Of a DNA stretch of 64,000 bases, positions 23,141 to 49,868 are shown piece by piece. Numbering within the stretch: the first letter of the stretch is position 1; each line of letters opens with the position of its first letter. Origin of the DNA: Bacteroidota bacterium (GTDB lineage: Bacteria > Bacteroidota > Ignavibacteria > Tepidaquicellales > Tepidaquicellaceae); the NCBI GenBank assembly GCA_018266845.1, contig JAFDZO010000011.1, positions 62,001 to 126,000 of the forward strand, given 5' to 3'. Both the position numbers and the translations under genes were made by a program. Under the pieces are notes generated by a model. It was not told the origin of the DNA and made no database searches. It was given only the letters and a program-made list of their open reading frames with translations.

Positions 23141-23887
23141 CTACTTCTCCTGATTTGCCATGATGTAGGCAGAAAGATTTGCAATATCCTGATTGCTGAT
23201 TGATTCATAGCTGAAGAAAGGCATATATTTCTTTCCGAAGCGTGTCATGTAGGTGATTGACTTTAAGTTGCCCTCAAAATCCCTGAACAAGCTCGGAACG
23301 CTTTTAATTTTCGTTCCGTCCATATGGCAAAACTTACAGGCATTTTTAAATACTTCTTCGCCTTTTGCCTTATCGCCCGTCAGCTTGGCGATTTCTTCCT
23401 GATCTTTTTTCAATTTTTCTTTATCCGGCGCAGGCAGTGCAATTGTTGTGTAAACACTGTTTTTAACTTCTTCATTCCACAGCACTGATTCATAATAAGC
23501 GTTGAGCGATGCAATCTGCTCAGGTGTCATTGCATCTTTATTTTTCAGGTACGTTGTCCAGCAGACAGTTGCGCCGCCTGCATTATTTTTAACTTCGTCT
23601 CCCTTAAATTTTCCAAGATAGGTTTCAGTTCTTTTGTTTGCGCCTCTTATGTTTGAATGAAATTTTGTAAGCGGATTTGAATCATTGGTTCCGTCTGAAT
23701 GGCAGTCAGCGCATTTTAGATTTGTAACAGATGAAGGGGCATAAAATAAATCTTTGCCCTGCTTTACAAGCTCAATGTTCGATTTCGGAGCTGTTTTATT
23801 ATTAGTGGTCTGCCCCTCTTTCTTACCGCACCCGTAAATTAAAACAGATAAAGTTAAAATGAGAATTGAAAGATAAGTTTTTAACAT
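23141..23887 (-). CDS. Diheme c-type cytochrome lipoprotein
   Basis: A 248-residue exported lipoprotein with lipobox Cys20 (LIYGC). Two heme sites: Cys59-AD-Cys62-His63 (LKCADCHSDG) and Cys184-KF-Cys187-His188 (ACKFCHMDG). A candidate distal Met is in KKYMPFFSYE, and the C-terminal SNQDIANLSAYIM is the usual last helix of cytochrome c. It probably shuttles electrons at the periplasmic side of a membrane. No oxidase or reductase gene lies beside it; nuoKL is convergent. A short TTCATTACCAATTATT-like run follows its stop. Confidence 0.85.
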   Translation of the reverse strand: MLKTYLSILILTLSVLIYGCGKKEGQTTNNKTAPKSNIELVKQGKDLFYAPSSVTNLKCADCHSDGTNDSNPLTKFHSNIRGANKRTETYLGKFKGDEVKNNAGGATVCWTTYLKNKDAMTPEQIASLNAYYESVLWNEEVKNSVYTTIALPAPDKEKLKKDQEEIAKLTGDKAKGEEVFKNACKFCHMDGTKIKSVPSLFRDFEGNLKSITYMTRFGKKYMPFFSYESISNQDIANLSAYIMANQEK

Positions 23888-37983: not shown

Positions 37984-40338
37984 TTACTTTAAAAGAACCA
38001 TCTTCTTTTTCCCGGTGAAATCTTGTGAAGTAAGTTCATAAAAATATATTCCGCTTGCATAATTTGCGCCATCAAAATCGGCAGTATATGTTCCAGCGTT
38101 TTTGAATTCGCTTACTAATGTTTGCACTTCCCTTCCGAGCATATCATATATTTTCAATGTTACAAAAGAACTTTTTGGAAGTGAAAAATTAATTTCCGTT
38201 TTTGGATTAAAAGGATTAGGATAATTCTGCCCTAACTCATATTTTTCCGGGGAAAGGTTTAATTGAATTGATGCCCCCGTTTCCGTTGTAACCATTATAT
38301 TATCCATAAAAAAGTTATTTCCATGAGCGCTCTTGGCAACAAATTTTATTCTGTTCGTTCCCTGCGGAATCAAATATTTTTTCGTCGCTGACATTTGCGA
38401 AGCGCTGTTTGGAGTGAAGACTGTCTGTAACCCCAGTGTTGACATTACAGGTGATGAATTTATTCCGCTTGAAACTGTTGAAGATGTAATCATATTTATT
38501 AACCTGTTCCAGCTTGTACCTGAGTTTGTCGAGTAAAAAATTGTGCAGGAGTCATTCAGTAGATTTCCATTTTCGATAAAGTAAGCATGGGCATAGTTGA
38601 ATTGAAGATATGTATTTGCTGATGCTGAAGGAAATTCAGGCGTTACAAGCGCTTCTGCAGGGCGTGAAGCAGCTGCTGTCCAGAAATTATACTTTACTAC
38701 CCCTGCTGTAGTGTCTGAACCTGCATAAGTTCTCGACCAATATGTAAATATGTAAGGTGAAGGTTCAGTAAGCCACATAGGGGGTGGAAATACAGACGAG
38801 ATAAAACTTTCATTCAATTGGGATAGCGAAGCTCTTCTGAATATAATTTTTCTATCAGGCAAAAATGAAGAAACTGAATCATTTCCGTAGTACCCTCGGA
38901 TTCTCCAATATCCTGTCATTGAATCTCCACTCGCAACTCCCGATGCCCATAGAAGGCTATCAATTCTTGATTTTGAAATTAATACTGTAGTATCGTATCC
39001 GTTGCTGAATGATTGAATTGATAGCAATGCAGGATCGGAATACGCTGCACCATTCTTAAACAAAAATTTATATTGCAGACCTGCGCTTGACTTATTCCAG
39101 GAAAAAAGAATTTTTGACGTATCTGTTTGAGAAACTTGTATGGTTGTTGCATTAACAGGAGATAAAAGAGAAAATGCCGATAGTATAATTTGCTGTCTCC
39201 TCAATGTAATTGCGCGCGGACCGTTAGCAGCTTTCATCGAATCAACTCCCGAAGCTCCGGGTCCTTTGAATGCTGTTACATCCCATTGCCCAACAGCAGA
39301 ATCCGTAGCAGAGCCGTTGTTCGTAAATCCGGCAGCTGCGAGAATTGAATCAAGCTTTGCAAGAGTTAGCGTAATGCTTATTTCTGAAGTCGAAAGATTA
39401 ATCCTGCGTGAAGATACGGTCGGATTTCCAAAATACCATTTGTAATTTGCGCCCGCGCCGGAGGTATCCCATGAAAAAGTTACGGTCTGTGAAGAGCCGG
39501 GAACAGAAACAATTCTATTTGATGCAGCAGGCGCCTGAAGATTAAAACTATTAAGCTGCCTCGGAACCGCATACGGGATAATAAGTCCGTCATAATAATC
39601 ATTTTCAGGAAGCTCGCCGATTAAAGTCATAGCCGCAGTTGAAGTATTGCACCTGTATAATCCTGCTGGCGGGGAGCCACTGAAATGCGCAGCTAAATAA
39701 AGTGAGTCAGTTGTAGGGTCAAAAGCCATTCCCTGCGGTCCTTGAAAAGAAAAACCCGTGTTCCCTATCAAAGTTGCTGCTGCCGTTGTTTTATTTACAC
39801 TGTATAGATTTGCCGTATAAGCCATTACATACAGTATTCCGTTATTACTGATTGCAAGATCAGTTGCAATTCCCACACCCGGCATTACACCGACTACGGA
39901 AAGTTGACCGGTGGTAAGATTTATTGTACAAAGTCTTCCGAAACCATCCTGAGTGTAAGTAATAGCAAACATCTGGCTGGTGGTTCTGTCCCACGCCATG
40001 CCGGAAACATCCCAGATACCTGAACCGGGGACAGGTCTTTGAACTTCTGCAATAACTTCTCTCTCTCCCATCAGGGTATCAATTTTGACTAAGTAAATAA
40101 TGTTTGAAACATTATCTACTGCATAGATGGTGCGGGTATTAGGGAGCATTGCAGCGGCTCTTATGTAATAGTACTGCGACGAATCCATTATCTGAATGTT
40201 CTGAGGTGTATTCAAAAAAGACTTACACAAGCCCCATGAATTTCTGAAGCAAAAAAACCTGCTGTTATAGTTTTCAGTCTGGCTGAAAGTACTGCTTAGT
40301 ATCATAAACAAAAAAATAGCTGTTAAAAATTTTTTCAT
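37984..40338 (-). CDS. Secreted propeller protein with T9SS sorting domain
   Basis: A 784-residue exported protein: signal peptide (about 1-20), a propeller of about 240 residues (NTRTIYAVDN, MAFDPTTDSLYLAAH), then a C-terminal half clearly related to that of the 4688-7729 protein (FNLQAPAASNRIVSVPGS, GSATDSAVGQWDV), and a T9SS domain from NYPNPFNPKTEI to KKMVLLK. The N-terminal parts of the two proteins differ, so they are domain-swapped paralogs. The two internal repeats are beta-sandwich-like. No enzyme signature is seen. Confidence 0.85.
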   Translation of the reverse strand: MKKFLTAIFLFMILSSTFSQTENYNSRFFCFRNSWGLCKSFLNTPQNIQIMDSSQYYYIRAAAMLPNTRTIYAVDNVSNIIYLVKIDTLMGEREVIAEVQRPVPGSGIWDVSGMAWDRTTSQMFAITYTQDGFGRLCTINLTTGQLSVVGVMPGVGIATDLAISNNGILYVMAYTANLYSVNKTTAAATLIGNTGFSFQGPQGMAFDPTTDSLYLAAHFSGSPPAGLYRCNTSTAAMTLIGELPENDYYDGLIIPYAVPRQLNSFNLQAPAASNRIVSVPGSSQTVTFSWDTSGAGANYKWYFGNPTVSSRRINLSTSEISITLTLAKLDSILAAAGFTNNGSATDSAVGQWDVTAFKGPGASGVDSMKAANGPRAITLRRQQIILSAFSLLSPVNATTIQVSQTDTSKILFSWNKSSAGLQYKFLFKNGAAYSDPALLSIQSFSNGYDTTVLISKSRIDSLLWASGVASGDSMTGYWRIRGYYGNDSVSSFLPDRKIIFRRASLSQLNESFISSVFPPPMWLTEPSPYIFTYWSRTYAGSDTTAGVVKYNFWTAAASRPAEALVTPEFPSASANTYLQFNYAHAYFIENGNLLNDSCTIFYSTNSGTSWNRLINMITSSTVSSGINSSPVMSTLGLQTVFTPNSASQMSATKKYLIPQGTNRIKFVAKSAHGNNFFMDNIMVTTETGASIQLNLSPEKYELGQNYPNPFNPKTEINFSLPKSSFVTLKIYDMLGREVQTLVSEFKNAGTYTADFDGANYASGIYFYELTSQDFTGKKKMVLLK

Positions 40339-40690: not shown

Positions 40691-42142
40691 ATGCACTCAC
40701 ACAGAGCGGTAGAACTCTTAAAAACGTTAAATGAAGATGAGCTAAAAGAATTTGGAGGCTTTATCGAATCTCCATTTTTTAATAACAGAGATGTGTTGGT
40801 CAGGCTTTTTAAAACTGTAGTAAAGTATGCTCCTGATTACAAAAGTAAAGTTCTATCAAAGGAAAAGCTTTATACCAAGATTTATCCCGGTAAAAAATAT
40901 AATGAGCAAACTTTGAGAAGCAGGATGTCCGAGTTTGCATCGCTGATAAGGGAATTTCTGACTCAAAAAAGTTTTTCCGAAGATGAATTTGAAAAAAAGA
41001 AATATTTCATCAAAGAGCTTACTAAAAGAAAAAAATTCGAGCTGGCGGAAAAATTTATTTCAGAAGCAGAAAAAGGAATTGCAGGAGATAAAGATTTCGG
41101 CAATATTTTTTTCAAGCAAAAGCTGCAGCTTCTCACCGAGCATGCTTCATTATGGATAGCAAAAGATGAAAAAGACAAATCGCTTGAATCTGCTTACGGC
41201 AGAGGCGAATTTTTATTAAATTATTTCCTGCTTGAGTATCTTAAAATCAATCATGACATAATCTGCATTGAAATTGAGAAAAAAGAAAAAAAAGATTTCA
41301 GCTTAGCTAATTTATTTTTTGAAAAATTTAATTTTGAAGAATATCTGAATGCTTTAAAGGAAAAAAATTACGAACATTATGCTCTTATCGCATCATACTA
41401 CTACGGAAACATGTCTATGCGCAAGCCTGAAGAAGAGTATTATTTTTACCAACTCAAAAATATTTTATATGAGCATTATAAAATATTTGCATTGGAAGAG
41501 CTTTATAACTACTGGTCGCTGCTTTCTAACTGCGCTTATGTCAATTACCTTAAAAAAGGCAAGAAATTTTTAAATGAGGGGCACGAAATAAATAAATTTT
41601 TTATAGAGAACGAAATTTATGACAACTCAAAACCGTTCTCGCCTTTGGGATTTCAGAACATTCTCATGAATGCAGTCATGGTAGAAGATTTTGACTGGGG
41701 AGAAAAATTTATTGATGAGTTTAAACAAAAACTGCCGACAGAGGCAGCCAATAACAGATATAATTTTTGCAAAGCCCTGATTTATTTTGAAAGAAAAAAT
41801 TACGGGAAATCAAATGAATTTTTAAATAAGGTTAAATTCATAGATGTTGAAATGAATTTAGGAGTCCGTTTAATTTATATAAAAAATTTTTATGAGATGG
41901 GATTGGTTGAAACCGTTGATTCTCAAATAGATTCTTTAAGGCACTTCGTTTCTAAAAATATTGAAAACCTTCACTCGTTTACACAGAAAAATATTAAAAC
42001 GACATTGCATTATATTTCTAAGATGGTAAGCGCGAAATTCGGAGTGAAAAAATTGGATTACAGCGATTTGAAAGAAGCAGAAAGCAACTCTAACTTTTTA
42101 CAGAGAAAATGGATTCTTGAAAAAATTAAAGAACTATTGTAG
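40691..42142 (+). CDS. Conserved hypothetical helical protein
   Basis: A 483-residue soluble protein with many Lys and Glu and no signal peptide. The N-terminal block (LLKTLNEDELKEFGGFIESPFFNNR ... LYTKIYPGKKYNEQTLRSRMSEF as two conserved-looking stretches) resembles uncharacterised proteins common in Bacteroidota-type genomes. The rest is predicted helical with TPR-like spacing (LAEKFISEAEKG, YEHYALIASYYYGN). It has no near neighbours on the same strand. I cannot assign a function. Confidence 0.7.
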   Translation: MHSHRAVELLKTLNEDELKEFGGFIESPFFNNRDVLVRLFKTVVKYAPDYKSKVLSKEKLYTKIYPGKKYNEQTLRSRMSEFASLIREFLTQKSFSEDEFEKKKYFIKELTKRKKFELAEKFISEAEKGIAGDKDFGNIFFKQKLQLLTEHASLWIAKDEKDKSLESAYGRGEFLLNYFLLEYLKINHDIICIEIEKKEKKDFSLANLFFEKFNFEEYLNALKEKNYEHYALIASYYYGNMSMRKPEEEYYFYQLKNILYEHYKIFALEELYNYWSLLSNCAYVNYLKKGKKFLNEGHEINKFFIENEIYDNSKPFSPLGFQNILMNAVMVEDFDWGEKFIDEFKQKLPTEAANNRYNFCKALIYFERKNYGKSNEFLNKVKFIDVEMNLGVRLIYIKNFYEMGLVETVDSQIDSLRHFVSKNIENLHSFTQKNIKTTLHYISKMVSAKFGVKKLDYSDLKEAESNSNFLQRKWILEKIKELL

Positions 42143-42233: not shown

Positions 42234-44420
42234 TTATTTTACTAAAATCATTTTCTTAGTAAAGGTATTACCTGCTGTTTCAAGAGTATAGTAATAAACA
42301 CCTGATGACAACGAAGATGCGTCAAATTTTACGCTGTAAGAACCTGCGTTTTTCATTCCGTTTACTAACGTATAAACTTCCTTACCTGACTGGTCATAAA
42401 CTTTCAATGACACAGCACCCGGATTAAGAACATCATATCTTATCTCTGTTGAAGGGTTGAATGGGTTAGGATAGTTCTGATAAAGAGCGTACTTGCTTAC
42501 TACATTTGAAATTGTCTGCTCTTCAACGTTTGTAATGACATTATAGTTTATTGTCATTTTCAATAAGCCTGAGCACTGCATTGCGATTAAGTATCCTCTT
42601 TCAGGAACGATAATTCCCGCTCCGCAGCCGCCGGAAGGCATTGAGTATTGAGTCCATGTTGCGCCGCCGTCTGTTGTGAATGAAGAATTTTGACCGTAGT
42701 TACCTGTTAGGATTACAGCAGGGTCTTCACGGCAGACATCCGAACCCCAACCGCTGAAGGTTGTAGATTGAATTGCTGACCAGTTATCACCGCCGTTTGT
42801 TGTTTTATATCTGTTGCTTCCGCTCCAGTTTGTACAGAATGCAAGTTTAGAATTGAATGCAGAATTACACATTGAAGGGATTTCGCTTAATCCGCTTCCG
42901 CCTGAGTTTGTATGAACCTTAACCCAGTTTACACCGCCGTTTGTAGTCTTGAAAATATCTGCCGGCTGTGATGCGCTTGTTATACCATCTGCAATGAAAA
43001 TATTGTTTGAGTTTTCCCATTCAACTATAACATCGCAAGGACTTCTGAATGGATAGTTACCGCTTACTTCAGTAAAGTTAGCGCCATTATTTGTTGACTT
43101 CCAGAAACCGCCGTTATCGGGGGCATAGTACCATAGATTCGGATTATTTTGGTCATTTTCCAATGGCATTCCATAGTTACTGAAATTAATTGAAAGAACC
43201 GTTGTCCAGGTTGCTCCGTAGTTTGTGCTTCTTACAACTACGTCTGTAGGGCTGCCTTCAATAGCGCACATCATTATATTTGTGTCAATCGGGCTTACAT
43301 AGAAAGAGTGAGCATTTGAAACAGTTCCTGAAGATGCTCCTACAGTTCCGATGTTTGTCCAGCTTTCACCTCTGTTAATGCTTCTGTAAATTGTCTTCCC
43401 ATATACTACGTAAAGTATGTCTCTGTTGTGCGGGTTTAAACAAAGGTTATTTCCGATACCGCCTGAGCCGGAAAGCTTTGATACCCAGCTAAAGCTCATT
43501 GTTGCGCCTGCTGTTAAGTTCCAGCTTGTACCGCCGTCAGTGGTTTTAATAACAGCATCATTTAAGCTGCTGCATGCAAAACCTGTATTAGCATCAGAAT
43601 ATACAACGCCTACTAAGTTAGCAAGCATCGGGTTTGTTTCAAAATTAAGGAACTGCGCGCTTCCGCTCTTATTGTTTCTGATAAAGCCGCCGCCGCCTGC
43701 AATGTGAACATCTGTATTGCTTGTTCCTGAAATGCTTCGGATGTCGGTTCTTGTTCTTGAGTTAATAGATGTAAGCGTTAAAGAGCCGTCATAGAATAGC
43801 ATTACTCCCCACTCGCCTGCAATATAACAGGTAGCTGTGAAGAATTTTACTGCTAAAAGATTTCTGGTTGTTCCGGTTACCAATGTCTGCCATGTATCAC
43901 CGCCGTTATTAGTCATATATGCTGTACCATTGTTACCTGCCACAATTCCGTTTGTTGCGTCTTTGAAGCTGATAGCATTATACTTTACATTTGCAACTCC
44001 GGTATTTTTAGGAGCCCATGTAAGTCCGCCATCGGTCGTTTTATATATAGAACCGTTATCACCGCAGGCATAACCTACAGTAGCAGTTCCGAATGAAACT
44101 CCGTTAATTGAATTAGCAGAGCCTGTACCATAGCCAACTATTGCAGAGTTGACTTTTGTTGTTTTATAAACTTTTCCGTCATTACCGCCAACCCAAACAT
44201 TATCACCAAAAGATGCTGCTGATTTGTAGTTGACTACACCGTTTGTTGTTCTCGACCAAGTTGCTCCCCCGTTACTGGAACGCAAAAATTTACCGTTGTC
44301 GCCGACAGCAAGAATATTTGTGTTGTCAGGCGCTACAATTGCATTCAGCCCCTGTGAATAAGCATTGCAGACGAACAAGGCAAGAAATAAAGATATAAAA
44401 ATCTTTAAATACTTTTCCAT
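42234..44420 (-). CDS. YCF48/BNR-repeat secreted protein with T9SS domain, paralog 1
   Basis: A 728-residue exported protein. After the signal peptide (about 1-22) about ten Asp-box-like repeats fill the length (SSNGGATWSR, TTDGGLTWAP, TNNGGDTWQT, TTDGGTSWNL, TTNGGDNWSA, TTDGGATWTQ), as in YCF48-like and sialidase-like propellers, probably two tandem propellers. The C-terminal T9SS domain runs from NYPNPFNPSTEI to KKMILVK. It is a close paralog of the next gene over its full length, so a tandem duplication is likely. Surface binding is more likely than catalysis, as no active site can be assigned. Confidence 0.85.
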   Translation of the reverse strand: MEKYLKIFISLFLALFVCNAYSQGLNAIVAPDNTNILAVGDNGKFLRSSNGGATWSRTTNGVVNYKSAASFGDNVWVGGNDGKVYKTTKVNSAIVGYGTGSANSINGVSFGTATVGYACGDNGSIYKTTDGGLTWAPKNTGVANVKYNAISFKDATNGIVAGNNGTAYMTNNGGDTWQTLVTGTTRNLLAVKFFTATCYIAGEWGVMLFYDGSLTLTSINSRTRTDIRSISGTSNTDVHIAGGGGFIRNNKSGSAQFLNFETNPMLANLVGVVYSDANTGFACSSLNDAVIKTTDGGTSWNLTAGATMSFSWVSKLSGSGGIGNNLCLNPHNRDILYVVYGKTIYRSINRGESWTNIGTVGASSGTVSNAHSFYVSPIDTNIMMCAIEGSPTDVVVRSTNYGATWTTVLSINFSNYGMPLENDQNNPNLWYYAPDNGGFWKSTNNGANFTEVSGNYPFRSPCDVIVEWENSNNIFIADGITSASQPADIFKTTNGGVNWVKVHTNSGGSGLSEIPSMCNSAFNSKLAFCTNWSGSNRYKTTNGGDNWSAIQSTTFSGWGSDVCREDPAVILTGNYGQNSSFTTDGGATWTQYSMPSGGCGAGIIVPERGYLIAMQCSGLLKMTINYNVITNVEEQTISNVVSKYALYQNYPNPFNPSTEIRYDVLNPGAVSLKVYDQSGKEVYTLVNGMKNAGSYSVKFDASSLSSGVYYYTLETAGNTFTKKMILVK

Positions 44421-44622: not shown

Positions 44623-46818
44623 TTATTTAACAAGAGCCATCTTCTTTGTAAATATGTTTCCGCCCGATTCTAAAGTATAGAAATAAACTCCCGAAGCAAA
44701 GGCTGAAGCATCAAACTTTACGCTGTAAGTTCCGGCATTTTTATAACCGTTTACTAATGAATAAATATTTTTTCCTTCCTGATTATATATGTTCAGCTTT
44801 ACGTCCCCGGCATTTTTAATAGCGTACTTTATTTCAGTAACCGGATTAAAAGGATTCGGATAGTTCTGATACAAATTAAAACTTGAAGGAACTGAACTTG
44901 ATACAATCTGCTCATCTATATTCGTTACAACTGTGTAGGTCATTTTCAATTTACAGATACCGCCGCATTGCTGGGATAATAGAAAATCTCTCCTTGGAAC
45001 TATAGTGCCTGCTCCGCAGCCGATTATTGATAGCGGATACTCAGTCCAACTGGTGCCATGATTTGTAGTTAGGGATACGTTTGGACCATAATTCCCCGTC
45101 ATTACAAGAGTAGGGTCTTCTCTGCAAATATCTGCTGTCCATCCGCTCCATGGTGTGGATTGAATCTGAAACCAGTTATCACCGCCATTAGTTGATTTAA
45201 ACCTCAAACTGCCGCTCCATGTTGTTAGATACATAAGGTTTTTATCAAATGGAGTAGTCATTACGCATGGAATTTCGCTTACAGTGCTTCCGCTTCCCGG
45301 ATTTTGATGCACTTTTACCCAATTAACTCCGCCGTTTGTACTTTTAAACAAATCCGCAGTACCGGAACCGGTAACTCCATCGGCAACAAAGATAACATTA
45401 GGGTCAAACCAGCTAAGAGTAATATCGCAGGGACTTCTGAAGGGATAGCCGCCGCTAATCTCAGTCCAATTTGCTCCATTATTTGTTGATTTGTAGAATC
45501 CGCCGCCATCAGGAGCAAAGTAAAATGTTGAAGGATTATTCTGGTCAATTTCTAAAGGTGTTCCATAGCTGGTGATATTCATGTTTAATATAATAGTCCA
45601 TGTTGCGCCATAATCCGTGCTTCTGACAAGTCTATCTGTGGGAGAAGCTTCTGACGCGGCAAGGAAAATATTTGTATCAGTAGGGCATACATAAAATGAG
45701 TGTGTATTAAAGGATATAACATTACTTGGAATCGTCGCAATCTGTGTCCAAGTTTCTCCTTGGTCTCCACTGCGGAGTATATTTCTTCCATAAGCAACAT
45801 ACATTCTATCTCTATCGTAAGGCAACATTGATATTCCGTTGCCAATACCGCCGGTAGCCGGGGTGCCTGAAATTTTTGTCTGTGAAGTAACCGTCATGGT
45901 TGCCCCTCCTGATAGTTGCCAGCTCTGTCCGCCGTTTGTTGTTTTTATGATTGCATCATTCAAACTGCTTATTGCGTAGCCTACATTCGGGTCTAAATAG
46001 CTTACATCAACAAGGTTAGCAAGCATTGGATTAATTTCAAAATTCAAAAAGTCGCCGCTTCCGTTTTTATTATTTCTAATAAATCCCCCGCCGCCTACTA
46101 TGTGCGCATCGGTGAAGCTCGAGCCGCTTATTCCTCTAATATCGGAAGTAGTTTTTGAATTAATAGGCGTAATTGAAATGCCGGTTAAAGAAAGTATAGT
46201 TCCCCACTCACCGGTAATAAGCGTTCCGCCTGAAAAAGCCTCAACAGATGTGAGATTTCTCGTAACACCTGAATTCACGCTTACCCAGCTTCCTCCTCCG
46301 TTATCGGTCATAAAAATTTTTCCGTTGTCACCGACAACTACTCCATAGTTTGCATCTCTAAAACTGATAGAGTTCAGCGCAGCTGCTGGAATGCCTGAAT
46401 TTGACAAGCTCCAGTTAATCCCTCCGTTGACTGTTTTATAGACTAAGCCTCCGCCGGCGCATGCAAACCCAATCGAAGAATTAACAAACCAAATTCCGTT
46501 TATCGGATTTGACGTGCCTGTTGCATAACTATTAACGCTTGAATTGATTTTGGTAGTCTTATAGACTTTCCCGTCGCTGCCCCCAACCCAAACGTCATTG
46601 CCGAATGCAGACGCGCATTTGTAATCAATTGAGCCGATTGTATATTTTGCCCATGTAGTTCCCCCGTTGGAAGAACGGAAAACTTTTCCTGCATTACCTG
46701 CGGCAAAAACATTGATATTATCAAGAGCTATAACGGCATTTAACCCTTGAGAATAGCTTTCGTGAGAAATAAATAAAAAGAGGATGAAGCAAATAAAAAT
46801 TTGAAATGACTTTTTCAT
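44623..46818 (-). CDS. YCF48/BNR-repeat secreted protein with T9SS domain, paralog 2
   Basis: A 731-residue exported paralog of the 42234 protein with the same order of parts: signal peptide (about 1-23), Asp-box-like repeats (SSNGGTTWAK, TVNGGINWSL, TDNGGGSWVS, TTNGGQSWQL, STNGGDNWFQ), and a T9SS domain from NYPNPFNPVTEI to KKMALVK. Repeated landmark phrases such as GGGGFIRNNK and PMLANLV occur in both. Each gene has its own terminator and promoter region, so they are not simply one operon. Confidence 0.85.
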   Translation of the reverse strand: MKKSFQIFICFILFLFISHESYSQGLNAVIALDNINVFAAGNAGKVFRSSNGGTTWAKYTIGSIDYKCASAFGNDVWVGGSDGKVYKTTKINSSVNSYATGTSNPINGIWFVNSSIGFACAGGGLVYKTVNGGINWSLSNSGIPAAALNSISFRDANYGVVVGDNGKIFMTDNGGGSWVSVNSGVTRNLTSVEAFSGGTLITGEWGTILSLTGISITPINSKTTSDIRGISGSSFTDAHIVGGGGFIRNNKNGSGDFLNFEINPMLANLVDVSYLDPNVGYAISSLNDAIIKTTNGGQSWQLSGGATMTVTSQTKISGTPATGGIGNGISMLPYDRDRMYVAYGRNILRSGDQGETWTQIATIPSNVISFNTHSFYVCPTDTNIFLAASEASPTDRLVRSTDYGATWTIILNMNITSYGTPLEIDQNNPSTFYFAPDGGGFYKSTNNGANWTEISGGYPFRSPCDITLSWFDPNVIFVADGVTGSGTADLFKSTNGGVNWVKVHQNPGSGSTVSEIPCVMTTPFDKNLMYLTTWSGSLRFKSTNGGDNWFQIQSTPWSGWTADICREDPTLVMTGNYGPNVSLTTNHGTSWTEYPLSIIGCGAGTIVPRRDFLLSQQCGGICKLKMTYTVVTNIDEQIVSSSVPSSFNLYQNYPNPFNPVTEIKYAIKNAGDVKLNIYNQEGKNIYSLVNGYKNAGTYSVKFDASAFASGVYFYTLESGGNIFTKKMALVK

Positions 46819-46934: not shown

Positions 46935-47282
46935 TTAAGATTCAAGTTTTTGCACTTGTTTTGTTTCGTTTAATTCTCCATAAAAAACATCCCAAATCAT
47001 AATTTCAGTTTTTCCGATTTCATTCATAGGACTTCCATTGCTTATCTCCACAGCATCTTCAATACTATCAGCAGAAATTAAGGTTAAGCCACCTGAATGG
47101 TTTTCAAATCCGCCGCCGCCGCAGGCGACGAGCTTCCCTTTTTTATATATGCTTTTCAGCCATTCCATAAGGCGGGGAATTCTATCCTGAAATTCCTGAG
47201 GATTGAAAACACCATCCGGCTCATTTGCTTTCCAGATAAGGGCATATACTTCTTTGAAGGGAGGGGTTGATTCGTTACTCAT
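46935..47282 (-). CDS. YCII-related domain protein
   Basis: A 115-residue soluble protein with a YCII/dimeric alpha-beta barrel pattern: YALIWKANEPDG at the start, GKLVACGGGGFENHSGGLTLI in the middle and ADSIEDAVEISNGSPM towards the end. The glycine run GGGG is unusual. Such proteins are small dimeric enzymes or binders with unknown substrate. It diverges from the T9SS cytochrome gene across a 153-base gap. Confidence 0.68.
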   Translation of the reverse strand: MSNESTPPFKEVYALIWKANEPDGVFNPQEFQDRIPRLMEWLKSIYKKGKLVACGGGGFENHSGGLTLISADSIEDAVEISNGSPMNEIGKTEIMIWDVFYGELNETKQVQKLES

Positions 47283-47435: not shown

Positions 47436-49868
47436 TTGAAAAAAGTATTTACAATATTTCTGCTTGGGCTTGCAGTTCTCACGGCTTCTGCCGCTGACTA
47501 TTCAATAGTTTTCGTTTCACGCAACATGGTATCCAACGGAAATGTGCTTTTTCCGCAGGCAACTCTTATTCCCGGAATGGGACCATACGGTAGATTTGCC
47601 GTTACAGGAGGAAGCCTTATGATAAGGGATGAAAGCGGAAACCTCACTACACTCGTTGACAGCACAAAAAATTTTAACGGGATAAGAATTTATGATGTCC
47701 AGCAGCCTAATGTAAATTTTGACGGGAATAGAATTCTCTTTGCAGGAGTCGAAGGACGGGATAGTTCGTGGAGAATTTATGAAATCAGAAAAGACGGAAC
47801 AGGATTCAGAAAAATTACTTTTACCAACAGAAATATCAGCTTAGAGCAGTTCGGTCCTGCTGCATACAGATTTGAAAGATATGATGATATAGACCCTATC
47901 TATCTCCCTGACGGACGAATATTATTTGCTTCAACCAGATTCCCTACTCTTTCAATGAAAGGTTATCCCGCAACAAATTTGTTTGTAATGGATTCGACCG
48001 GAAACGTGCTTAAAAGAGTTACGACTGAACGAAACGGAGCAGAGAAACCAGCGTTGGATAGAATTTCAGGAACCATAATTTACTCTAGATGGTGGCAGAA
48101 TATTGACAGACCAAGCAACTTAACACCGAATAATATTACAAGAGATGATAATCTTGCGCTGACTACTGATTTCGGAAATGTGTGGCAGATAGCAAGCTGT
48201 GTTTCCGATGCTGATGAACTGAAGTTTTACGGCGGCGACCCGCGCTCACGCTTATCACTTAATAATTATAGAGGAAGAATTACATCCTCCGGCGATTTAC
48301 TATCCGTCTTTACTCCAGACAGGTCAATGACTATGACAAGCGGAAGCCCGGGCATAAGAATCACAAAAAAGGGACTTTCCTATTATTCTACTTTAGAAGG
48401 TGTAGATACTACCACATCTACATATTCACAAACTCCGGCTTCAATGAATATCTACGAAGGACCATACGCTACTGATCCGGTAGAACTGCCTGACGGCAAG
48501 ATTCTTTTCTCCTATGCTTCTTCTCCGGTAAATGCAGATTTCTCCTTATATACATACGACTTAAATACTTCAACTAAAAGTTTTTTCCTTGATGTACCGG
48601 GAAAACTTGAACTGAATGCAGAGCCGTTAGTTTCACGCCCGGTTCCATTTTTCCGTCTGGGCTTGGATGACTATGATACGAGCAGCGTTCCGCCGACCAA
48701 TGACCCAAATACATTTTTCAAAGGCGGGCTTTTTAGATTCGATTGCCTGAATGTATATGCAAATGCTCCGATTGACATACCCATTGATGATGCACCTCCG
48801 ATTAAGAAAAGAGCTAAGTTTCAATTCTTTTTAAATTTTCAACGACAGGACCCGAACGGTCAGGATGGTCCGATTTTGTTTAGAGAAATTGATTTAGACT
48901 TTGACGGGAAAATAGCGCAGGGCGATATGCCTTCAAATGTATCTATGTTTGAACAAATTGTTGACAGCACAGGAAAGGTTCTTGTAAATAAAAAAGGAAA
49001 CATTTCTCACGTAATGGGATTGAATTTTGGCGCGCAAGGCTCAGGCACTAAGTGTGTTGGCTGCCATGCAGGACATACATTAGTTCCCGTATCTCATAAT
49101 GTTACGGAAGGAGGATTTACAAATTTATCCACTTCTGCTGCGGTAACTTCAAGCAGTGTATTCAATAATAATTCATCTTACCGCGGACAAAATATCGTTG
49201 ACAGGCGCGCAAAAAACACCGACCTGAAGGTAAACTGGATTTCAAACGGAACTACCGGTGAGTATGCAGATTTACAGTGGGAAATACCGATTGAAGTTCG
49301 CAGATTAAAAATTTATAACATTCTCGAAAATTTTGTTACAGCCACGAACATAAAAGTTCAGGATTGCGAAATCTATATGTACTATAAGGGTGTTCAGGTG
49401 CATTACATTCCTTCTACGGGAGCAATCAGTTCTGACGGAACACTCATAACCTTGAACCCGGTTCAAAGAATTGACAGGATGAAAATTATTGTGAAAAGCT
49501 TTTCCGGAAAAATAATGAATCAGTCAGTAGCCGGGCTTGCAGAAATAGAAGTAAATGCGCGAATATCATATGATGAGCCGCCTCCGCCTGACCCAACACC
49601 TCAATACTATTACTTAAATCAGAACTACCCAAATCCTTTTAATCCGGCAACAAAAATTACGTTCAGCCTTGCCCGCTCTCAATATGCAAAGCTTGAAGTA
49701 TTTGACATCACTGGGCGTTCTGTGGCATTACTTGTTGCGGGAGAAATAACAGAGGGAGAACATACGATTGATTTCAAAGCAAGCTCAATCCTCCCTTCAG
49801 GAGTGTATTTTTATCAGCTGACAACACTTAATTTTTCAGAGACGAAGAAAATGGTGCTGGTGAAGTGA
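47436..49868 (+). CDS. Secreted PD40/HzsA-like propeller cytochrome with T9SS domain
   Basis: An 810-residue exported protein from a TTG start: signal peptide (MKKVFTIFLLGLAVLTASA), then a propeller with PD40-like strands (DIDPIYLPDGRILFASTR, PVELPDGKILFSYAS) resembling hydrazine synthase alpha-type proteins, then one heme-c site Cys540-VG-Cys543-His544 (GTKCVGCHAGH), a discoidin-like strand region and a T9SS domain from NYPNPFNPATKI to KKMVLVK. This would place a heme protein on the cell surface. Hydrazine synthesis itself is not supported, since HzsBC and the other anammox genes are absent. Confidence 0.78.
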   Translation: MKKVFTIFLLGLAVLTASAADYSIVFVSRNMVSNGNVLFPQATLIPGMGPYGRFAVTGGSLMIRDESGNLTTLVDSTKNFNGIRIYDVQQPNVNFDGNRILFAGVEGRDSSWRIYEIRKDGTGFRKITFTNRNISLEQFGPAAYRFERYDDIDPIYLPDGRILFASTRFPTLSMKGYPATNLFVMDSTGNVLKRVTTERNGAEKPALDRISGTIIYSRWWQNIDRPSNLTPNNITRDDNLALTTDFGNVWQIASCVSDADELKFYGGDPRSRLSLNNYRGRITSSGDLLSVFTPDRSMTMTSGSPGIRITKKGLSYYSTLEGVDTTTSTYSQTPASMNIYEGPYATDPVELPDGKILFSYASSPVNADFSLYTYDLNTSTKSFFLDVPGKLELNAEPLVSRPVPFFRLGLDDYDTSSVPPTNDPNTFFKGGLFRFDCLNVYANAPIDIPIDDAPPIKKRAKFQFFLNFQRQDPNGQDGPILFREIDLDFDGKIAQGDMPSNVSMFEQIVDSTGKVLVNKKGNISHVMGLNFGAQGSGTKCVGCHAGHTLVPVSHNVTEGGFTNLSTSAAVTSSSVFNNNSSYRGQNIVDRRAKNTDLKVNWISNGTTGEYADLQWEIPIEVRRLKIYNILENFVTATNIKVQDCEIYMYYKGVQVHYIPSTGAISSDGTLITLNPVQRIDRMKIIVKSFSGKIMNQSVAGLAEIEVNARISYDEPPPPDPTPQYYYLNQNYPNPFNPATKITFSLARSQYAKLEVFDITGRSVALLVAGEITEGEHTIDFKASSILPSGVYFYQLTTLNFSETKKMVLVK

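Follow-up and report, generated by a model that had tools for sequence, protein, structure and literature searches.

Introduction

The alpha subunit of hydrazine synthase (HZS), HzsA, was formerly held to have no relatives (PMC12758564). Remote homologs outside the anammox bacteria were reported in 2023 and 2025 (PMC10732223, PMC12758564), and a broader HZS-like family was suggested from hzs-like genes (PMC10732223). As described in these papers, the HZS-like alpha homologs are distant from HzsA, keep the heme alpha-I site and have lost key residues, and they show linkage to propeller proteins of other kinds (fused beta-gamma, FG-GAP); PMC12758564 describes clades I-IV, linked to beta-gamma homologs. 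In HzsA itself, according to PMC12607021, the potential of heme alpha-I is very low and this heme is proposed as the site of catalysis, His587 of its CXXCH motif binds zinc, and Tyr591 is the proximal ligand of the heme iron. Here we describe an HzsA-like gene at positions 47436-49868 on the forward strand of a 64,000-nucleotide stretch of contig JAFDZO010000011.1 (source genome GCA_018266845.1, Ignavibacteria). This whole stretch is called the window, and coordinates follow its numbering; loci carry L labels and genomes G labels, G000 being the source genome. The HzsA-like protein, apparently displayed on the cell surface, shares a propeller and single-heme core with an enzyme known from anammox bacteria alone, and is probably a surface heme enzyme yet to be characterised. 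Together with a neighbouring propeller gene, called the partner below, it offers a concrete gene pair for probing the HzsA fold outside anammox. The pair also bears on whether bacteria with a type IX secretion system (T9SS) perform heme chemistry at their surface.

Results

The open reading frame (ORF) translates into 810 residues that run from a Sec signal peptide through a propeller, a single-CXXCH domain and a DUF7402 region to a T9SS type A sorting domain. It starts with TTG, the sole in-frame start because the open frame begins just five codons upstream. The resemblance to HzsA is real and reflects remote homology that spans the propeller and heme alpha-I domain. The NCBIfam model for hydrazine synthase alpha, NF052339, matched the protein at E 2.3e-8 with 32.4 bits, short of its equivalog cut-off of 800 bits. 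It also matched all 19 members of an alignment, A1, whose 18 orthologs are 48-74% identical to the HzsA-like protein (best 1.2e-16). When the A1 profile was searched against the PDB, HzsA (5c2v) was found at 4.9e-8, and the sole other row at E<=1 was winged bean albumin (0.14). Twenty anammox HzsA genes were retrieved, and 14 of them were aligned for profile comparison; hhalign matched A1 to these 14 with a probability of 98.8 (E 8.9e-17) over 422 columns, from the propeller through CHxG. PF18582, the Pfam HZS_alpha middle domain with a gathering score of 26.6 bits, had no match in the HzsA-like protein at E<=1 and weak matches in 9 of 19 orthologs (best 4.2e-4); the relative L070 reached 24.5 bits.

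The predicted fold agrees. The AlphaFold2 model covers residues 22-810 with a mean predicted local distance difference test (pLDDT) score of 89.9. Among solved structures, VIA-align placed HzsA 5c2v first (Z 33.8, 427 residues, root-mean-square deviation 2.9 angstrom, model 1-536 on chain 57-600), followed by TolB at 26.3. HzsA was also the top Foldseek match (E 1e-20); in our reading the TM-scores were just 0.46-0.48 because the C-terminal parts differ. A sequence-only reading of this DNA had remarked that the propeller recalls hydrazine synthase alpha-type proteins. That resemblance now stands as homology, and the propeller did not fall into an unrelated family: HzsA leads the fold matches by a wide margin.

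The domains can be placed as follows, all on the forward strand. The Sec signal peptide, MKKVFTIFLLGLAVLTASA, was read off the translation at 47436-47492, with a predicted cleavage site. The beta-propeller spans residues about 22-401 (47499-48638); a TolB-type propeller matches model residues 1-380 with Z about 26, within the HzsA match of 1-536, and PD40 was matched in 10 of the 19 members of A1. Residues 153-168 of the translation read DPIYLPDGRILFASTR. A middle domain of the heme alpha-I type follows at residues about 402-557 (48639-49106, borders approximate), inside the structural match to HzsA 57-600 and the hhalign match to HzsA 115-598. It holds the heme-attachment motif C540-V-G-C543-H544 (49053-49067), which aligns with C-S-G-C-H of HzsA. 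Residues 563-706 (49122-49553) form a DUF7402 or F5/8 type C-like (discoidin, galactose-binding-like) domain, found at 4e-4 here and in 16 of the 19 members of A1. The PF24135 score was 20.9 bits against a gathering score of 27, which relatives L070 (39.2 bits) and L103 (27.9 bits) exceed. DUF7402 and F5_F8_type_C_2 matches overlap in L070, and Foldseek matches of our model include fucose-binding modules. The T9SS type A sorting domain closes the protein at residues 731-807 (49626-49856), with 43.1 bits to TIGR04183 (cut-off 23) and 1.5e-9 to PF18962, Por_Secre_tail. A TIGR04183 score above the cut-off combined with a signal peptide marks the protein as T9SS type A cargo.

Both the putative heme-c site at Cys540, Cys543 and His544 and the T9SS tail had been proposed by the sequence-only reading, and the motif and the tail are indeed there. 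The bare DNA pattern for CXXCH occurs 8 times in the window against an expected 2.98, a count attained in 3 of 100 shuffles; this mild enrichment is weak evidence alone. The motif is nevertheless more than chance, because it is conserved across orthologs. These were gathered by protein search without motif seeding into an alignment of 30 rows, the HzsA-like protein included. C540 is present in 30/30 rows; C543, H544, H547 and C644 in 29/29 rows that have a residue at the position; and H525 in 29/30. Every ortholog that reaches the site (29 of 29) has the signature CHxGH, usually as CVGCHxGH and once as CAGCHAGH. Its last residue, His547 (49074-49076), was found in 12 of 12 further unseeded rows as well: five of five among L144-L148 (L149 ends before the site) and seven of seven Chloroflexota rows that reach it (L164-L169 and L172, one reading CTGCHKGH), L170 and L171 stopping short.

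This signature separates the family from HzsA. All 20 HzsA proteins have CxGCHxGSY and a second CXXCH, whereas the HzsA-like family has CHxGH and a single CXXCH. Where His547 stands, HzsA has Ser, with Tyr591 one residue on. The histidine directly after CHxG means that either H544 would be an ordinary axial ligand or H547 may take the place of Tyr591. Cys303, a zinc ligand of HzsA, has no counterpart: the family has no conserved propeller cysteine, C255 is mostly Ile in orthologs, and hhalign aligned none. According to PMC12758564, Cys303 is absent from some anammox bacteria as well. An F5/8C-like domain stands in the place of the heme alpha-II domain of HzsA, and the T9SS tail and the linked partner are further differences.

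The partner is encoded directly upstream on the opposite strand, by two genes in tandem. Copy 1 (44623-46818, -) encodes a BNR / YCF48-like tandem-propeller protein of 731 residues with a T9SS tail, identified by Pfam PSII_BNR and Sortilin-Vps10 matches, a structural model, adjacency and co-occurrence. Copy 2 (42234-44420, -; 728 residues, Pfam) is 57% identical to it. In L198 (G001:C1:378000-392500), from the same genus, the partner is present in four tandem copies next to the cytochrome; a YCII-like ORF separates them from the cytochrome gene, whose other flank holds hisS. The partner model (pLDDT 86.6) matched GH74 xyloglucanases best in Foldseek (8e-19, 16% identity) and PorZ at 8e-17, and its sequence profile matched YCF48 and GH74. 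VIA-align matched the first half best to generic 7-bladed propellers, and the likeness to GH74 is therefore one of fold, not of membership. We read the partner as a tandem propeller, similar in predicted fold or profile to GH74 xyloglucanases, YCF48 and PorZ and different from them in its T9SS tail.

To find relatives, 84,980 genomes were scanned with two seeds, one of which was the heme motif. The scan gave 479 stretches with relatives, and the best 80 of the 479 were kept, making 79 loci. They span Ignavibacteria, Chloroherpetonaceae, Eisenbacteria, Chloroflexota, Acidobacteria, Planctomycetota, Saprospiraceae, Myxococcaceae and others. Partner adjacency was scored over all 79 by tblastn, counting matches of >250 aligned residues; a first neighbourhood clustering had missed the partner, probably since T9SS tails merged clusters, and the targeted tblastn recovered it. 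A partner homolog is present in 26 of the 79 loci (21/35 in the Ignavibacteria lineage, 1/1 in Chloroherpetonaceae, 4/4 in Eisenbacteria and 0/39 in others). The remaining 53 comprise 10 sister-family-type Ignavibacteria loci, L065 with a partial match, three short contigs (L100, L112, L114) and the 39 of other phyla. In 25 of the 26 the partner and the cytochrome frame overlap or are at most about 280 bases apart, the gap in L044 being 913 bases; the overlap in L069 is due to a long spurious open frame. The two genes are divergent in most Ignavibacteria and elsewhere close and co-directional, with 24 bases between them in L162 and 8 in L163.

The two genes also occur together across genomes. 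Protein searches of 59 related genomes, the source genome included, found full or partial copies of the HzsA-like protein in 34 at E<=1e-60; G048, with a weak match of 5e-5, was counted as lacking it. With thresholds chosen post hoc (cytochrome E<=1e-60, partner E<=1e-59), 34 genomes have both genes, none the cytochrome only, one the partner only (G042) and 24 neither, 58 of 59 being concordant. The best partner match is <=2.1e-60 in all 34 cytochrome genomes and 5.5e-113 in G042, and the other 24 of the 25 genomes have none better than 8.9e-20; no best match falls between 2.1e-60 and 8.9e-20. Genus g7 contains four genomes with both genes and one with neither, and genus g8 one of each. Fisher's test, which ignores shared ancestry, gives p 1.2e-15 for the 59 genomes and 1.4e-8 for the 44 of the order.

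More widely, 20 of 395 sampled genomes of the phylum match the family profile at E<=1e-3, nine strongly (E<=5e-88) and 11 over short lengths. Among 301 Chloroflexota genomes, searched with an unseeded profile, there were six full-length proteins (L164-L169), three partial or split ones (L170-L172) and otherwise short matches. A plasmid search returned no match to the HzsA-like protein and so did not support spread by plasmids. In a tree of 39 rows (27 CHxGH proteins, six HzsA and six other HZS_alpha-type proteins, with a paralog from the source genome among the last), each of the three sets forms one group, with support of 100/100 for CHxGH and for HzsA. The tree program warned of long branches (L152 and L110) and of unequal composition. 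The CHxGH group covers several phyla, and within it Ignavibacteria, Chloroherpetonaceae and neighbours, and Eisenbacteria form one 14-row branch (99/99). Every partnered locus placed in the tree sits in this branch, as does the sister-family row L024, which has no adjacent partner. One CHxGH subclade, of Ignavibacteria, Chloroherpetonaceae and Eisenbacteria, is thus linked to a tandem-propeller T9SS protein, a linkage that is new here.

The HZS_alpha paralog of the source genome (contig C22, L119:8537-11308; 923 residues) scores above the PF18582 cut-off. It is HZS_alpha-type with a CXXCH, as the HzsA-like protein is, and differs by its CNSCHG motif, a dockerin-like tail and its place on another branch of the tree. 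Other proteins with similar dockerin-like ends adjoin it.

A third gene often accompanies the pair. This encodes a choice-of-anchor V T9SS protein with GCxCH (NF041895 8e-34 in L061, 8e-31 in L162). It follows the partner in L162, L163, L064, L067 and L105, and adjoins it in every genome of sister family f2 except G037 (14 of 15) and in five genomes of the source genome's own family (G005, G019, G020, G026, G027). In the source genome the choice-of-anchor V copies lie elsewhere and read GCTCHG, GCICHN and GCGSCHG. The choice-of-anchor V proteins at L162:12766-13617, L163:11789-12634 and L194-L196 have a GCxCH or GCxxCH close to their N-terminus, a possible further heme or metal site.

Discussion

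The CHxGH group looks different from the homologs reported so far, with its own heme signature, a binding-type domain, a surface-sorting tail in Ignavibacteria and a specific partner gene across phyla. The HZS-like clades of PMC12758564 are described there as having a two-residue gap at Ser590/Tyr591, whereas the CHxGH family has His-Thr or His-Ser straight after CHxG; those clades are linked to beta-gamma homologs, and the CHxGH family to its tandem-propeller partner. As far as its main text goes, PMC12758564 contains none of the words 'Ignavibacter', 'Chlorobi' and 'T9SS'. A literature search over titles and abstract openings, with most subscription journals outside its coverage, likewise returned no description of an Ignavibacteria or T9SS HzsA-like protein, of the CHxGH group or of the partner.

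We lean, by a little, towards a T9SS-exported single-heme surface protein whose heme is catalytic or ligand-binding, acts on a small molecule and works with the partner. Homology, domain order and gene linkage are direct outcomes of the computation. Export and heme attachment are predicted from motifs and homology, a complex of the cytochrome and partner would follow from their linkage, and catalysis and its substrate are conjecture. After Sec export, heme would be attached at C540/C543 in the periplasm, and the T9SS would then carry the folded protein outside through its C-terminal domain. The heme pocket would lie in the middle domain beside the propeller, like that of HzsA, and a lone heme so placed would suit catalysis or ligand binding more than service as an electron wire. 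The F5/8C-like domain may grip a surface glycan or a partner protein. The cytochrome would act with its tandem-propeller (GH74/YCF48-fold) T9SS neighbour and, in many genomes, also with the choice-of-anchor V protein. Outside the outer membrane the heme might work on a small molecule of the peroxide, nitric oxide or hydroxylamine type, or on a redox-active extracellular compound, in chemistry that the F5/8C-like domain and partner could keep near a surface target. Taken as a set, the cytochrome, partner and choice-of-anchor V genes most likely specify a surface heme oxidoreductase, with substrate, heme ligation and catalysis being what we infer.

Several observations weigh against this reading. 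The T9SS tail is seen only in Ignavibacteria cytochromes, and the partnered relatives L064, L067, L069, L144 and L147 end after the F5/8C-like domain; a surface location is therefore not common to the whole family. Ten of the 79 loci, of sister-family type (L051-L058, L089, L099), have no adjacent partner, though genomes of that family hold one. In Chloroflexota, Acidobacteria, Planctomycetota and other groups, 39 loci in all have none either, and the HzsA-like module must therefore work there without it. Shared ancestry inflates the co-occurrence statistic. Tyr591 and Cys303 are not kept, and the catalytic precedent of HzsA may therefore not carry over. The heme, activity and location are predictions for every member of the family. 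On the matter of location, the partners in L162 and L163 end in a T9SS-like tail, though the cytochrome there has none. Where a tailed partner meets a tail-less cytochrome, it may be that the partner presents the cytochrome or that the cytochrome remains periplasmic.

A bolder form of the surface-enzyme reading would make the family a distinct, widespread HzsA-related surface complex. Its alpha-type heme subunit, with CHxGH where HzsA has the catalytic CHxGSY, would be coupled to a double-propeller T9SS protein and to a choice-of-anchor V protein bearing CxCH, not to a CCP-like gamma subunit, and beyond the outer membrane the complex would perform heme chemistry on a glycan or small molecule. 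We offer this tentatively, as possible and rather doubtful. If it is true, the HzsA fold gains a further type of partnership, and there is a clue to its role before anammox.

The main alternative is that the heme is structural or sensing, and that the cytochrome, doing no redox work itself, serves to stabilise or mature the partner propeller. TfcP offers a precedent in Myxococcus: as PMC8833165 describes it, this noncanonical cytochrome c stabilises, and is required by, the surface adhesion protein PilY1, a parallel that we draw by analogy with no claim of homology. The strong linkage to a single propeller protein would fit such a role, but the full HzsA-type core, heme domain included, is conserved in phyla without the partner too, and we consider the explanation unlikely.

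Slightly less likely again is a terminal electron-transfer cytochrome, exchanging electrons with minerals or other cells beyond the outer membrane. Surface electron transfer was what the sequence-only reading had expected, and the CXXCH and the T9SS tail on which it leaned are there. Dense CXXCH clusters on other contigs of the source genome (C6:57939-59338, C8:66697-71662), presumably large multiheme cytochromes, would suit it as well. The electron-transfer part of the claim fares worse: the HzsA-like protein has a single heme site, a scan of the loci found no conserved CXXCH-bearing neighbour of its gene, and the equivalent HzsA heme is the very low-potential candidate for a catalytic site noted above (PMC12607021).

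It is improbable that the CXXCH/CHxGH site holds another metal or an extracellular disulfide in place of heme c. H547 does complete a C-x2-C-H-x2-H arrangement, a possible metal site, and ResB (system II) was not found in the source genome, in which the Ccm system was not searched for. The motif, however, aligns with the HzsA heme alpha-I site in sequence profiles and sits inside the fold match. The source genome also contains CXXCH 252 times against 118 for a reversed control pattern, and with this excess and the multiheme clusters it very likely makes c-type cytochromes, which implies functioning heme attachment. Finally, that the organism produces hydrazine extracellularly through a true hydrazine synthase can be dismissed despite the homology to HzsA, given a score of 32 bits where the equivalog cut-off is 800, CHxGH and not CHxGSY, the absent second heme, and a gamma-type subunit that went undetected because CCP_MauG (PF03150; control positive in E. 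coli and M. acetivorans) had no match in the source genome at E 1e-3, the beta subunit itself not being searched for.

Other genes of the window

Between the partner and the cytochrome lies a gene for a YCII-domain protein (46935-47282, -; PF03795 6.6e-6), and a similar ORF is found at this position in G001, a genome of the same genus. Beyond the partner copies, 40691-42142 (+) is an ORF of 483 residues with no Pfam match at 1e-3, and 37984-40338 (-) encodes a 784-residue T9SS protein with SusE and DUF4394 matches. Another cytochrome, with two CXXCH motifs and Cytochrom_C and Cytochrome_CBB3 domains, is encoded at 23141-23887 (-).

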